DNA from: Nitrososphaerota archaeon
GTDB taxonomy: Archaea > Thermoproteota > Nitrososphaeria > Conexivisphaerales > UBA164
Assembly (NCBI GenBank): GCA_029786595.1
Contig: JAFLXO010000007.1
Coordinates: 1-36,570, forward strand
Length of the DNA: 36,570 nt
Reading direction: 5' to 3'
In this document: one piece after another, positions 21,531-27,425 of the stretch
How the letters are laid out: each line of letters starts with the position of its first letter
Position numbering within the stretch: position 1 is the first letter of the stretch
Position numbers and translations under genes: made by a program
The notes under the pieces: model-generated
What the model was told of the DNA's origin: nothing
The model's database searches: none
Seen by the model: the letters and a program-made list of their open reading frames with translations, nothing else

Positions 21531-22682
21531 ATGAGGGACAGCACGGAGGCCATTCATGGCCACGGATTTTTCGATGAATCAACTGGTACGTTCATACCAC
21601 CCATTTTCATGTCAGCCATGTTCGAACAGCCGGGGTGGACTAGGAGCACGGAACGCGGCGTTGACCTGAAGTATAGCAGGGAGGAGAACCCATCCGTCTC
21701 TTCTCTGGAAAGGATTATGACAAAGCTGGAGGGGGCTGAGGACACGCTCGCCTTTTCCAGTGGAATGTCGGCCATCTCCAGCATTTATATGTCTAAACTC
21801 AAGGCCGGCGCAGCTGCCGTCGTGATATCTGAAGCTTATGCAACTTCTATCAAGCTACTGGAGGATTACAGGAAGTTCGGGGTAGATGTGAGGACGGTCT
21901 GGCCAAGCACAGAAGAAATAATAGCATCAATCAAGAAGGATGTTGCATTTGTGCTCCTGGAGAGCATGACCAATCCATCCCTTAGGGTATTCGATATAGA
22001 AGAAATAGCAAAGGCAGCTCATGAAGCTGGCACGGAGCTGATAGTTGATAACACCTTCCTGAGCCCGATCCTGTACAAGCCCCTAGCCCATGGTGCAAGG
22101 CTCGTCATAGAAAGCAGTACCAAATACCTGAATGGCCATAATGACGCCATAGGCGGGATAGTCTCTGGTAATAAGGAAGACATCAGAGGGCTCTGGGACT
22201 GGAGGCGAAAAATGGGCTCCATCATGTCACCGCTAACCGCTTACCTTACGAGCAGGGGGCTGAAGACGCTGGAGTTGAGGGTCAAGAGGGAATCCGATAG
22301 CGCGCTACGAATAGCCAGATGGCTCTCAGAGAGCGGCATGGTAAAGGAGGTTATATATCCCGGGCTTGAAGATAACCCATATCATAAGCTGGCAAAGAAG
22401 CAGTTCACAGGATTTGGAGGGGTCCTTTGCTTCAGGGTCCGGGGTGGAGGAGCCGCTGCCAAGCTTTTGCTAAAGTCAATAAAGCTGATCAAACCAGCGC
22501 CGAGCTTAGGTGGCACGGAGAGCCTGATAAGCTATCCAATCATTTCGGCCTCCTCCTCCCTGGATCAGGCCAGCCGACAGAAGCTGGGGATAACCGATGA
22601 CCTGCTCCGCCTTTCATTGGGGGTTGAAGATCCGGAGGACCTTATGGCGGACCTCAGGCAGGCACTGGGCAGGACCGGCTGA
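21531..22682 (+). CDS. Cys/Met metabolism PLP enzyme (cystathionine gamma-synthase/lyase type)
   Basis: This fold-type I PLP enzyme belongs to the trans-sulfuration family, which makes or cleaves cystathionine or related sulfur amino acids. The 383-residue protein has the family motifs YSREENPSVSSLER, FSSGMSAISS, LLESMTNPSLRVFDI, VDNTFLSP, and ESSTKYLNGHNDAIGG with Lys198 as the PLP lysine. SLGGTESLISYP is the substrate-side C-terminal motif. The family's gamma-synthase, gamma-lyase, O-acetylhomoserine sulfhydrylase and methionine gamma-lyase cannot be told apart reliably by eye, so I give no symbol. It is monocistronic between the nuo operon and a minus-strand cluster. Confidence 0.9.
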   Translation: MRDSTEAIHGHGFFDESTGTFIPPIFMSAMFEQPGWTRSTERGVDLKYSREENPSVSSLERIMTKLEGAEDTLAFSSGMSAISSIYMSKLKAGAAAVVISEAYATSIKLLEDYRKFGVDVRTVWPSTEEIIASIKKDVAFVLLESMTNPSLRVFDIEEIAKAAHEAGTELIVDNTFLSPILYKPLAHGARLVIESSTKYLNGHNDAIGGIVSGNKEDIRGLWDWRRKMGSIMSPLTAYLTSRGLKTLELRVKRESDSALRIARWLSESGMVKEVIYPGLEDNPYHKLAKKQFTGFGGVLCFRVRGGGAAAKLLLKSIKLIKPAPSLGGTESLISYPIISASSSLDQASRQKLGITDDLLRLSLGVEDPEDLMADLRQALGRTG

Positions 22683-22910
22683 ACGCCCACAGGACTTCCG
22701 AGCTCCACATTAAAGCAAGATCATCCTGCCTGACAGGCCATCATCTTATGGCCGAAGAGTACAAGCCTTTCTGAGGGCTATTCCCTTGTGGGTTAGCTAG
22801 CCACCAGGGAGTCTGTTTTGTGATTCAGCCATACGTTGCTTGCGATGATACATAACAGCGCCATCATTTCCCAAATAAGGGCAGTCGCTCTAATATTTCT
22901 TGTTCTATGG

Positions 22911-23348
22911 TCAGGAGCCCTTCAGGTAGCTGCCATCAATTGTCACCTGAAGCTGATAGCGTGTATCTAGCAGGCTTACAGTGGCCTCCTTCTTGTCCTT
23001 GTCAAACCTTACTATCCGCGCTTTCATCCCCTTAAATGGGCCCGTTATGACCTCCACCACCTGCCCTTCGGCGAAGGACATTTCGACCTCCATGGGTTTG
23101 ATTATGCTCTGAATATCGCTAACCTTCATCAGCCCCGGAACGGTGGACCTGACGTTCTTGGTTCCGGTGGACAGGTCGGCAACTACATTTATTTTTTCGG
23201 CCTCTATAAGGAGGTATCCCTTCATTTTACTTGCATATATTATGGAAAAGATAGGAAGTCCCTTTGTTTTTACCCTTTCAGCTATGCTTTCAGCTATGTT
23301 CTTCTCGTGCCCGCCGGCTACCTTAAGAACGAATATCTTAGATGTCAT
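22911..23348 (-). CDS. spt5: Transcription elongation factor Spt5 (NusG-like)
   Basis: Spt5 binds the RNA polymerase clamp and makes elongation processive, usually together with Spt4. The 145-residue protein has an NGN domain (about 1-83: KIFVLKVAGGHEKNIAESIA, SIIYASKMKGYLLIEAE) and a KOW domain (about 92-145: FAEGQVVEVITGPFKGMKAR). I use ATG at 23348, which follows GGAG seven bases upstream and lies one base after the stop of the preceding gene. A GTG at 23360 would add four residues and overlap that gene. The archaeal order secE-spt5 is conserved, which supports the SecE call next door. Confidence 0.93.
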   Translation of the reverse strand: MTSKIFVLKVAGGHEKNIAESIAERVKTKGLPIFSIIYASKMKGYLLIEAEKINVVADLSTGTKNVRSTVPGLMKVSDIQSIIKPMEVEMSFAEGQVVEVITGPFKGMKARIVRFDKDKKEATVSLLDTRYQLQVTIDGSYLKGS

Positions 23349-23349
23349 A

Positions 23350-24312
23350 TCATGCTCCACCTAGTAGGGCTGCCACTAAATGGATAATAAACCCTATGCC
23401 GCCGGTCAGCGCTAATGCCAGGATGACCAACTTAAGGTAGAGGTTGTATTCCTTTTTTGTGGACTTCTTGCTATAAGAGAGGATAGTCATCATGCTCCTT
23501 CCCATTTCCTTAACGTTCTCTGTCCTCCGTATCATAAAGGCTGCGGTACCACCTATGATCACGGCAACCAGCCCCAGACCGATGTATAACTCAATCGGGT
23601 TGCTGTATGCAAATGCGACTTCAACCGATGCGCCGGCCTGATTAACGGTTACTGAGCCCTTCGAGGGGGTTGGCACAAAATTCTTGTTTACAGATGATAT
23701 AGTATAATTGTAGGCACCGTTAGCTTCATTTATGCTTATGGTGGCGTTGTCCGAATAGAATGTATTACCGTTGATGGTCACCGACCAGTTTCCACCGCTT
23801 ACTAGCCCGGTCTCGCTAAACACTACGGCATATAATACGGGGGCAAATGTGATCGTCTCTTCTACTGGTGTGCCTGTTACGTTGACAGTACCAGATGATG
23901 GGGTCGCCGTATAACCAGGTATGGAGAGGACGGTAAATGCATAGGACCCGTTGACCTCCTGTAATATCGTGCTATCGCTCGTTATGTTGATTATGTTTTC
24001 ATTGACGGTTATCTCCCAAGAAGTATTAGGCGGTAGCCCAACTTCAGTAAAGTTTACTGGGTAGTTGGTTAACGCGGTTGCAGCCGCAGACAAATCGGCA
24101 GGCATCCCATTAGTCTGGGCAAGGGAAACGCTGCTGGGATTTCCGCTGAGGTTAAACGACCCCAGTAAGGGGTAAAGCCCTGCTTCAGCATGCTGCAGGC
24201 TGGGCCCGCCTGAGTTCTGTGCAATCATCTGTTGCCCGCCTGCAACGACGATGGCACATAGCAGGATGAGCATCAGAAGCACTGTAAGTCTTTGGGTGTA
24301 ATCCGGCTTCAT
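23350..24312 (-). CDS. secE: Secreted beta-repeat domain fused to SecE (Sec61 gamma) translocon subunit
   Basis: The 320-residue protein starts with a cytoplasmic basic segment and a membrane helix (about 10-30). Two thermopsin-type repeats follow (about 83-158 and 160-236), each beginning like VNFTEVGLPPNTSWEITVN or VVFSETGLVSGGNWSVTIN. A second helix spans 241-261. The last 60 residues look like a complete archaeal SecE: a basic cytoplasmic helix, KKSTKKEYNLYLK, then GGIGFIIHLVAALL. The outer part carries about nine N-glycosylation sequons. Signal anchor out, second helix back in, SecE helix out: this gives SecE its normal orientation. The gene sits directly before spt5, the usual place for secE. 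In-frame Met260 and Met270 could start a free SecE, but neither has a clear ribosome site. I judge the SecE identity likely and one fused product probable. Confidence 0.8.
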   Translation of the reverse strand: MKPDYTQRLTVLLMLILLCAIVVAGGQQMIAQNSGGPSLQHAEAGLYPLLGSFNLSGNPSSVSLAQTNGMPADLSAAATALTNYPVNFTEVGLPPNTSWEITVNENIINITSDSTILQEVNGSYAFTVLSIPGYTATPSSGTVNVTGTPVEETITFAPVLYAVVFSETGLVSGGNWSVTINGNTFYSDNATISINEANGAYNYTISSVNKNFVPTPSKGSVTVNQAGASVEVAFAYSNPIELYIGLGLVAVIIGGTAAFMIRRTENVKEMGRSMMTILSYSKKSTKKEYNLYLKLVILALALTGGIGFIIHLVAALLGGA

Positions 24313-24494
24313 ACCATATCACACATCTGGTAAAGGTAGTGGTAACCCGTCGAGTAGCTGTTAACGTACAGTTTTCTTATGCATACGGTAAATCTGCAGC
24401 CCAATATGGCACCGTTCATTTTATATCAGCTTATAAATATTCCGAGGAATAAATTTGCCCCAATAGAATCTGGTTTTTTCCATGCAATAGGGCT

Positions 24495-25184
24495 TCATTT
24501 CCTCTTTTCCCTGATCCGCAGTATACCATCGACTAGCCCCTCTACTGCCTTTGCAGGGTCAGCGCTTTTCATGACAGCCGATGCCATGGCCGCTCCATCG
24601 GCCCCTAACTCGATTGACCTGTAGACGTCTTCGCCCGTGACTATACCGGCACCGGCGAGGAGGAATACCTTTCCACCTTGTCTGTTGGCATCCACGGCCC
24701 TAGTTATAACTTCGGGTTTTTCCCTGGATATTGCCCTTCCGGTGCCAATAAGTTCAGGCGGTTCGATCAGGAGCGCCGTTGGCTTGAGAAGCCCGACCGG
24801 GGCCACCAGTTCGTACCGGTCCACGCATACAACGCTTTCCAGCCCGGACACCTTCATCATATTTATAGCATCAGAAAGTTCAGAGAGCTTCATGCTTCTT
24901 TCGCTGTGGTTTAGGATTGATCCCTTGGCGCCGGCCTCCTTTATGAGCTCGGGGGTTATGCTCCCCGTGGCAGCCCCGAGGGGCGACGCATCTACATGCT
25001 GAGCGAACACTGGTATCGATATCTCCTCCGCCAGCCTGTTTATCATAGTGGCCGGCACGGAAATTATTATTTCCACGGATCGCTCCAGGCTTATCCTCTC
25101 CAGGATACGAGAGAACGATATGGCCCCTTCTCCATATGAATTGTTGTACAGCTTAAAGTTTATCAAAAGTAATGGCGGCTTCAC
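24495..25184 (-). CDS. tpiA: Triosephosphate isomerase
   Basis: This enzyme interconverts dihydroxyacetone phosphate and glyceraldehyde 3-phosphate. The 229-residue length is the short archaeal form. Active-site residues are Asn9 and Lys11 (LINFKLYNN), His92 (ILNHSERSM) and Glu140 (LIEPPELIGTG). The phosphate loop GAGIVTGEDV and GADGAAMASAV are present. The start is GTG at 25184, with a TATA-like catatttt about 28-35 bases upstream. A 182-base gap separates its end from the next gene on the same strand. Confidence 0.95.
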   Translation of the reverse strand: MKPPLLLINFKLYNNSYGEGAISFSRILERISLERSVEIIISVPATMINRLAEEISIPVFAQHVDASPLGAATGSITPELIKEAGAKGSILNHSERSMKLSELSDAINMMKVSGLESVVCVDRYELVAPVGLLKPTALLIEPPELIGTGRAISREKPEVITRAVDANRQGGKVFLLAGAGIVTGEDVYRSIELGADGAAMASAVMKSADPAKAVEGLVDGILRIREKRK

Positions 25185-25360: not shown

Positions 25361-25912
25361 ATGGAAGAAAAGGTAACATTAGAAACCAAGCCCACAGTAA
25401 GCAGGTGGGCCAACAGGTTCATATGGGCATCGATAATACAGGGATTATTCGCTGTGGCATGGACAATTCCCATAGTGCTCCCAAATATCAGACCCTCGGT
25501 GGCGCAGGTTATAGCAAGCGGTAGTGCGGGGACATGGTTCCTAGTCGGATACACCATGTACATAGTTGTCGGCGTATTCGGCGCCGCGGTTACAGCTCTC
25601 TTCTATCACCACCTTGAGGTTGAAATGAAGAAGACCATCAAGGGATTCTCGAACGCGTTAGCCTGGGTTCATCTTGTGGTGATGAACGTAGGGGCGGCAG
25701 CCGTAACATGGGCTCTCATGTTTGCAGGGTACTTCGGTGAGGCCGATCTTATGCCGGTGAGCGAAGGTGGGAAGGGGTTAAATGCTGGTCAGGTTCATGT
25801 GATACTATTGTCGCACTTCATTGATCCTGTTGGAGCGCTTCTAATCATAACAGCACTGGGCGTCCTAGCTGGTGGACTGGTTTTTGTATTGACGTATTTC
25901 CGTAAAGGATAA
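25361..25912 (+). CDS. Four-helix membrane protein, paralogue of the next gene
   Basis: The 183-residue protein has about four membrane helices and a short charged N-terminus. Residues in and near membranes include FYHHLEVEM, AWVHLVVMNVG and VHVILLSHFIDP, so up to five His lie near helix ends. The WxHLxxMNVG pattern recalls part of heme-copper oxidase subunit I proteins, but four helices are too few and I regard this as weak. The segment SGSAGTWFLVGYTMYIVVGV is repeated in altered form in the following gene. A very AT-rich promoter precedes the ATG at 25361. Confidence 0.65.
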   Translation: MEEKVTLETKPTVSRWANRFIWASIIQGLFAVAWTIPIVLPNIRPSVAQVIASGSAGTWFLVGYTMYIVVGVFGAAVTALFYHHLEVEMKKTIKGFSNALAWVHLVVMNVGAAAVTWALMFAGYFGEADLMPVSEGGKGLNAGQVHVILLSHFIDPVGALLIITALGVLAGGLVFVLTYFRKG

Positions 25913-25956: not shown

Positions 25957-26448
25957 TTGACCATATGGTATAGTCTCTTTAGAAACGCCGCTTATTCTTA
26001 CCTTGCGGGGTTTATAATCTGGACGGCTCTATTTATACTACCCTTCAGTCCTTTCACATATCTTCTCCCGATACTGGTACGCGGGGGGCCAGGGATTTGG
26101 TTAATTCTGGGCTATATGCTCAACCTTACGGTAGGGGTGATCGGTTCTGGGATGCTGTCATCACTTATTTACACCATCGAAATGCATGAGAAACGTGTTA
26201 TAAATAGAAAGCTCATGATTTCCGGATTTACGCTTCTGAACGTGGGCATAATCTCAAGTTGCGTGCTTCTCGCTACGGCCGGTGCCCTTGGGGGATACGC
26301 CATCGATATAGGCGGCGCATCCGAGCTGGCGGCACAGGGGCTTCTTACGGCGTATGTTTATCCCATCACCATCACTGTCATCATGGCCATAGTGGGGGCA
26401 ACCTTAACTCTACTAACTATGATCGGTGCAAAGGCGCCTGTAGCTTGA
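25957..26448 (+). CDS. Four-helix membrane protein, tandem paralogue
   Basis: The 163-residue protein has about four membrane helices. Its middle, GGPGIWLILGYMLNLTVGVIG, aligns with SGSAGTWFLVGYTMYIVVGV of the preceding gene, followed in both by a charged loop and a helix containing LNVG or MNVG. It lacks the His pair of its neighbour (HH becomes TI). The start is TTG at 25957; no in-frame ATG lies near. It is 44 bases after its paralogue and overlaps the next gene by four bases (TTGA). I read the pair as a tandem duplication with divergence. The function is unknown. Confidence 0.65.
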   Translation: MTIWYSLFRNAAYSYLAGFIIWTALFILPFSPFTYLLPILVRGGPGIWLILGYMLNLTVGVIGSGMLSSLIYTIEMHEKRVINRKLMISGFTLLNVGIISSCVLLATAGALGGYAIDIGGASELAAQGLLTAYVYPITITVIMAIVGATLTLLTMIGAKAPVA

Positions 26449-27425
26449 TCGGACTGGGTGGGGCATGGCGGAGGAGAAAGGCTTGGCTAATCGCGCTTTT
26501 GATGATCCTAGTCTTATCTATGGTTACTTCGCAGATATACATAGGCAATGCGAAGTCGCCGGAGCGTCTGGCTCCGTCATCAGGGGCGAATTACTATAAT
26601 GGTGGCGCCTCTTGGGGCGCTGGGCTCGTAGTGCCTGAAGGCTCACGTACAGCAAATGGCGGCAGGGTTGACTGGGCCGACGTGCAAAACGTTTCGGCCA
26701 TCCTCCGGCTTCCGGACATCAATGAGACCGACGGCACAATTTATATGATAATGTCTCTGATGACTTCAAACGGTTCAATAATCCAAGCTGCAGCGGGCCT
26801 GTATCCAAATTCGAGCTACTGGGGCACTTACGCTATGTATGTAGCCAATCCAGCAAAACAGGTATACGCGCCGATAATTTCAACCGAAGCCCCTTACATG
26901 GCGCCTGGTGACATCATATCCATGTCCATATATTTCCTACCTGGTAACGGTTGGAACCTTCTTCTCCTGGATCTTACAAATGGACTATCGGCCAGCGCAT
27001 CGTTTGGGCCTGGGTTGCCAGCATCACTAAAGGTAGGGGATCAGTTCGTATTCGCGCTGGAATCATATACTTCTACCCTTTCCGTATTTGAAAATATGGG
27101 CAACGTTACGCTTTATGCGCTTCTGATCAATGGGGAGGCGGTTATAAACGGCAGCTACCTCTACAGCGGGTGGAATAACCTCCGCTATCCGCTATTCATG
27201 GTTGGAGGAGCCAGTGTGCCGAACTTCATGGCCATGAACCTGACTGCGTCAGGTGGGGTGGTCTGGAGCTACAGGAGCCAGTGGGGTTCCCCATCTTCAG
27301 GCCCACCCGCAGGGCTAGATCTAATCTTCTTGGCACTGGCCGCTGCCGCCGCAGTCAACGTGGTGATATTGGTTCTGCTCCTATGGAGCAGGGGTAAGGC
27401 TAAAGAGAGGATTAGCGTGCGATAA
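26445..27425 (+). CDS. Membrane-anchored exported protein resembling G1 (glutamic) peptidases
   Basis: Starting from the TTG that overlaps the previous stop (TTGA), the protein has 326 residues. It has a signal anchor (13-33), a large external beta-rich domain (about 40-285) with six N-glycosylation sequons, and a C-terminal helix (291-314) with a basic cytoplasmic end. The external part resembles the eqolisin/G1 peptidase layout: WADVQNVSAILRLPDI; a Gln in SIIQAAAGLY (Gln114); YMAPGDIISMSI; LLLDLTNGLSASASF; and FVFALESYTSTLSVFENMGNV, where Glu206 matches the catalytic Glu of the family's WIVE motif. A Gln-Glu pair is the known catalytic dyad of these acid proteases. The similarity is a motif-level reading and could be a related lectin-like fold. 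Confidence 0.6.
   Translation: MIGLGGAWRRRKAWLIALLMILVLSMVTSQIYIGNAKSPERLAPSSGANYYNGGASWGAGLVVPEGSRTANGGRVDWADVQNVSAILRLPDINETDGTIYMIMSLMTSNGSIIQAAAGLYPNSSYWGTYAMYVANPAKQVYAPIISTEAPYMAPGDIISMSIYFLPGNGWNLLLLDLTNGLSASASFGPGLPASLKVGDQFVFALESYTSTLSVFENMGNVTLYALLINGEAVINGSYLYSGWNNLRYPLFMVGGASVPNFMAMNLTASGGVVWSYRSQWGSPSSGPPAGLDLIFLALAAAAAVNVVILVLLLWSRGKAKERISVR

Follow-up and report, generated by a model that had tools for sequence, protein, structure and literature searches.

A SecE translocon subunit fused in frame to a predicted outer repeat domain in one archaeal genus

The window analyzed here, a stretch of 36,570 nucleotides, contains a secE gene fused in frame to an upstream part that encodes a signal anchor, a pair of thermopsin-type repeats and a further transmembrane helix. 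It is the only secE detected in each of three genomes of the genus, and to this extent the preliminary description of the gene stands. The product is probably the organism's sole SecE, made as a three-helix membrane protein; this reading covers its anatomy and its SecE function, and leaves aside any role of the added domain at the channel exit.

Results

The fused gene spans positions 23350..24312 of the reverse strand (320 aa), with an ATG at 24312 and a TGA at 23350-23352, exactly as described before. The next gene on the same strand is spt5 (22911..23348), which encodes a transcription elongation factor with NGN and KOW domains (PF03439, E 2.7e-17; TIGR00405, 99.8 bits; profile search). A single nucleotide separates the stop codon of the fused gene from the spt5 ATG at 23348, and a Shine-Dalgarno-like GGAG is located at 23355-23358, with a 6-nt spacing to that ATG. 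The fused gene does lie directly before spt5, a position that had counted initially, next to its C-terminal sequence, for reading it as secE. The usual order in this region, secE-spt5-rpl11-rpl1, is interrupted after spt5 in this family: a convergent gene of the PLP-dependent Cys/Met-metabolism type (21531-22682, forward strand) follows spt5 in the window, and a nucleotidyltransferase-like gene is found beyond spt5 in two other genomes (G003 and G008).

On the upstream side, about 180 bp separate the fused gene from a gene on the same strand (24495..25184), which reads as triosephosphate-isomerase-like from its sequence only. A TATA-like box (24432..24437, reverse strand), recognized by consensus match only, is kept in a second genome of the genus (G001); in both genomes a perfect TTTATA stands 125 nt ahead of the fused gene. 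The interval from this conserved box to the gene (24313-24437, reverse strand) thus measures about 125 nt. The secE genes of the lineage mostly have a box about 31-36 nt before the start, and the comparison suggests that the leader of the fused gene is unusually long. A small ORF between the box and the fused gene shows mostly non-synonymous-looking substitutions between congeners, and the region was taken as leader. An Rfam search of 22800-24600 found no RNA element. Further upstream, positions 26259-27425 (forward strand) encode what is predicted to be a surface protein, either secreted or anchored in the membrane, with many sequons and with a helix and a basic tail at its C-terminus; two small ORFs for four-helix membrane proteins (25361-25912 and 25957-26448) adjoin it.

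The SecE domain comprises residues 264-320 (23353..23523, reverse strand): profiles, AF2 helices and the hydrophobic moment delimit an amphipathic helix at residues 267-281 and a transmembrane helix at 286-319. TIGR00327 matches residues 264-319 with 33.5 bits (E 2.6e-8) in an hmmscan of the whole protein and reaches 37.2 bits in a genome scan, over the cut-off of 36.2, a borderline value given the hmmscan score. PDB SecE chains match residues 263-319 at E 0.0015. A class-level SecE profile (A1), built from 17 SecEs, matches the fused ORF at E 2.9e-26, equal to stand-alone SecEs, although the score is somewhat favoured by the SecE region of the query being one row of the profile. By contrast, PF00584 gives the fused protein 13.2 bits, below its cut-off of 22.7 and too weak alone to call a SecE, and a PF00584 scan of the whole genome recovers no SecE. 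The model misses SecE here because the sequence is too divergent for it, and it was replaced by TIGR00327 and the class-built profile for SecE detection. The assignment of the C-terminus to SecE is borne out by TIGR00327, the class profile and the PDB chains.

The predicted helices follow the archaeal SecE layout of a cytoplasmic amphipathic helix and then one transmembrane helix. The amphipathic helix has a hydrophobic moment of 0.50, against 0.49-0.61 in relatives. The length of 320 aa departs from the usual single domain of about 55-90 aa, which is a usual rather than a defining trait of SecE. Stand-alone SecEs of sister genera share up to 59% identity with the fused SecE and precede spt5 wherever the neighbourhood was read; the secE-spt5 order is kept across the class.

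The A1 profile finds exactly one match in each of the three genomes of the genus (G000, G001 and G002), and each match is the fused gene. A second, separate secE, a possibility raised in the preliminary description, was not found by profile search in these genomes, which are 83, 73 and 74% complete. The chance of all three MAGs missing such a gene is about 1.2% if the misses are independent. SecE was matched in 378 of 400 genomes of the class, and a single copy is the rule. SecY is likewise present in one copy in each of the three genomes, full length and normal-looking. Given the gene order, the sole-copy status and the intact SecE sequence, the fused gene very likely does ordinary SecE work.

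The frame is uninterrupted in all three MAGs of the genus. In G001 it is complete on a 119-kb contig and 95% identical over its full length (L002). In G002 it is split over two overlapping contig ends, with 96% identity over residues 40-320 (L003) and 91% over residues 1-81. The congeneric MAGs (isolates DX2.bin21 and TL1-5.bin24) were assembled separately, and since both keep the frame intact, the fusion is no assembly error. The dN/dS ratios of the N-terminal part in the three genome pairs (0.20, 0.12 and 0.09) indicate purifying selection; the SecE part, with 0 or 1 amino-acid change between congeners, is also under purifying selection. These low ratios and the near invariance of the SecE part indicate that the whole frame is translated and selected.

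As far as seen, the fused SecE is specific to the genus. Among 20 genomes searched in the order, it occurs in 3/3 of the genus, while 15 others have a short SecE and two (66-68% complete) have none detected. The fused gene is by far the longest SecE coding frame among about 160 matches listed from the 400 class genomes, and again among all matches listed from 151 genomes of the phylum; the other SecEs listed in these searches are short or have no usable upstream frame. The same fusion was not found in the several hundred other archaeal genomes checked at the levels of order, class and phylum. Several other long frames were discarded: the next in length, 259 aa stop-to-stop in G144, is a non-coding extension that is Arg/Pro-rich and runs largely antisense to a 252-aa ORF, with the SecE starting near GTG 203, and the long frames in G015, G056 and G011 were likewise judged to extend upstream without being used. 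A search for a donor gene encoding the N-terminal part on its own found only larger repeat proteins, and open-access papers yielded no SecE fusion. The host had originally been placed in Thermoplasmata, which is probably wrong: the surroundings of SecE and spt5 in the nearest genomes resemble those of Nitrososphaeria, and no other genus of the order has the fusion. The host is probably a relative of Nitrososphaeria, the nearest genomes forming one order in a class whose other members resemble that group; DX2 and TL1-5 may come from acid mine drainage.

Hydropathy places three helices in the protein, centred on residues 8-26, 242-260 and 295-313. The first is a signal anchor (residues 5-27; 24232..24300, reverse strand; hydropathy up to 2.49, AF2 helix 5-27), and the sequence makes cleavage of the signal after about residue 26 plausible. 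The second (residues 239-263; 23524..23598, reverse strand; hydropathy 2.13, pLDDT about 58) is predicted to run from outside to inside and ends in MIRR. The segment between them includes a predicted disordered extracellular linker (residues 34-80; 24073..24213, reverse strand; pLDDT <50 over 24-71 and 73-79), the fastest-evolving part besides the signal (dN 0.03-0.04). The outer residues 34-239 contain 2 K/R and 13 D/E, and the loop 260-297 contains 9 K/R. This distribution of charges fits a protein with helix 1 N-in, the repeats outside, the SecE loop inside and the C-terminus outside, and the topology proposed at the outset is, as a prediction, consistent with both hydropathy and charges.

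The linker is followed by two thermopsin-type repeats, recognized by repeat scores and predicted by AF2 to form beta-sandwiches: repeat 1 at residues 84-160 (23833..24063, reverse strand) and repeat 2 at residues 161-237 (23602..23832, reverse strand), the latter with a same-genome paralogue in G000:C22. The AF2 model of the whole protein has a mean pLDDT of 71.5, with about 90-92 in the two beta domains (91.8 when modelled alone) and helices at 239-263, 267-281 and 286-319; confidence is modest (56-80) for helix 2 and the SecE helices. Compared with each other, repeats 1 and 2 score 118, where shuffled sequences give 31 +/- 7 and at most 68, and each repeat scores 103-107 against the C-terminal repeat of a thermopsin protease from the same genome (PF05317, E 6.5e-74), with shuffle means of 29-31. 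Neither Pfam nor NCBIfam has a curated repeat model that matches them. The N-terminal part gives a weak CoaP_CTERM match (E 0.017). Three thermopsin genes are encoded in the genome; the one in L037 (3643-5418, reverse strand; G000:C22) carries a single repeat of this type and ends in a helix with an RRRR anchor.

Foldseek matches the predicted outer region to tandem Ig-like and CNA-B-like surface domains (TIE, TM 0.68; SdrD B domains, 0.66; pilins), and weakly to a chain of the human BOS complex (9c7u_B, TM 0.36). The predicted fold is generic for surface proteins, and such matches say nothing on function. The estimate of about nine sequons in the outer part proved exact: nine were counted, all in the ectodomain, where shuffling gives 4.9 (P 0.027). 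With STT3/AglB, the N-glycosylation enzyme, encoded in the genome, glycosylation of the region is possible.

Discussion

We propose the following arrangement for the fused protein. Helix 1 would act as a signal anchor and carry the linker and the two beta-sandwich repeats outward, and helix 2 would lead the chain back into the cytoplasm, after which the ordinary amphipathic and transmembrane helices of archaeal SecE would clamp SecY as usual. Each export channel would thereby bear on its outer face an acidic arm of roughly 200 residues, rich in sugar-acceptor sites. Hardly any linker separates repeat 2 from helix 2, which should keep the arm close to the membrane beside SecY. From there it could act locally, either as a binding site for proteins that are emerging or have just been exported, or as an attachment of the channel to the surface coat. 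By analogy with exit-side proteins of other Sec channels, we tentatively favour a use of the arm at the exit, as a tether or a chaperone. In its wider form, with the arm as chaperone, receptor or surface-coat tether and as a one-chain counterpart of TRAP or PpiD, the proposal is a conjecture that may well prove wrong.

Nearly as likely, and a serious rival although itself doubtful, is a real fusion whose product functions as SecE but whose arm does nothing at the channel, being a surface-protein module that is tolerated or serves an unrelated surface task. Such a module (signal, two repeats and helix) could have joined secE, for example by placing secE under the promoter of a surface protein. 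The same repeats do occur in unrelated surface proteins and in a thermopsin protease of the order, the N-terminal part is laid out like an anchored surface protein, with a helix plus RR as hinted at by CoaP_CTERM and seen in L037, and the fusion is restricted to one genus. In addition, the SecE part is not preceded by the CTTAAA-like box that stands 31-36 nt ahead of the start in most stand-alone secE genes of the order. The purifying selection on the N-terminal part argues against a passenger, as it implies that this part does something, and so does its attachment to SecE in all three genomes of the genus.

An internal restart of transcription or translation would also reconcile the long frame with a canonical SecE, which would then begin at Met260, with 61 aa, or at Met270, with 51 aa, the long product being a separate surface protein or a by-product. 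A product from Met260 would have about the length of the relatives' SecEs, a TTTATG matching the TATA-like consensus at 5/6 positions lies 33 nt ahead of Met270, and all three genomes keep M260, M270, M274 and M275, which coding conservation can explain. We nevertheless regard this as unlikely: no CTTAAA box stands at the expected spacing ahead of M260, where the best match agrees at 3-4 of 6 positions, neither M260 nor M270 has a well-spaced Shine-Dalgarno sequence, whereas spt5 has one, and the junction shows no excess of synonymous constraint (longest invariant codon run 22, shuffle P 0.44). Less probable again is that the full-length protein is cut after helix 2 and before the SecE helix, or in the linker, so that the mature channel holds an ordinary SecE. 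Thermopsin proteases are encoded and the signal could plausibly be cut, yet no motif is recognised at residues 262-266, and thermopsins act outside the cell, which does not suit a loop predicted to be cytoplasmic. Finally, it is very improbable that the SecE part is a mere membrane anchor with the true secE unassembled, or that the frames were misjoined: the incompleteness of the three MAGs leaves some room for a missing gene, but it would have to be lost from all of them in a lineage where one secE per genome is the rule and the frame occupies the secE locus before spt5, and the three assemblies agree on the fusion.

The fused protein shares with archaeal SecE/Sec61-gamma (TIGR00327; M. jannaschii, PDB 1RH5/1RHZ) the amphipathic helix and one long transmembrane helix, the profile match, the locus before spt5, the single copy and the presence of a SecY partner. 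It differs by about 262 additional N-terminal residues, since the stand-alone SecEs of relatives have about 56-90 aa and no outer domain. The three-helix SecE of bacteria, as in E. coli, offers an analogy of layout only: two extra helices precede the conserved part, in an N-in/C-out topology, and in E. coli they form a hairpin without a large outer domain, while the fused SecE has one between helices 1 and 2. The acquisition of a transmembrane hairpin in some SecEs (PMC8675477) is a precedent for extra N-terminal helices; for a large outer domain on SecE we found none. Thermopsin-type repeat surface proteins (such as G000:C22, PF05317) have the repeat unit in common with it, as well as the succession of signal, repeat, helix and basic residues, but the fused SecE lacks a protease domain and its chain runs on into SecE.

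Outer-face domains at the Sec channel, as proposed for the arm, are found in PpiD/YfgM of bacteria (PMC8082313), in TRAP, a separate exit-side partner in eukaryotes and Asgard archaea (PMC11417166), and in NOMO, which belongs to the human BOS complex. They are analogous to the arm in position only: these are separate subunits, whereas the arm would be a covalent part of SecE, and no Pfam or NCBIfam match links the outer domain to TRAP, PpiD or NOMO.

Few parts of the universal Sec channel are as small and as uniform as SecE, which in the hundreds of relatives scanned consists of a short helix pair standing alone. A lineage with a 200-residue outer arm on SecE would indicate that a covalent domain on the exit side can be accommodated, and perhaps exploited, at the back of the channel. 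The fused SecE would offer a ready test of a link between the translocon and the surface coat, glycosylation or acid-side folding, and may serve as a natural scaffold on which other domains could be held at the exit of the channel.
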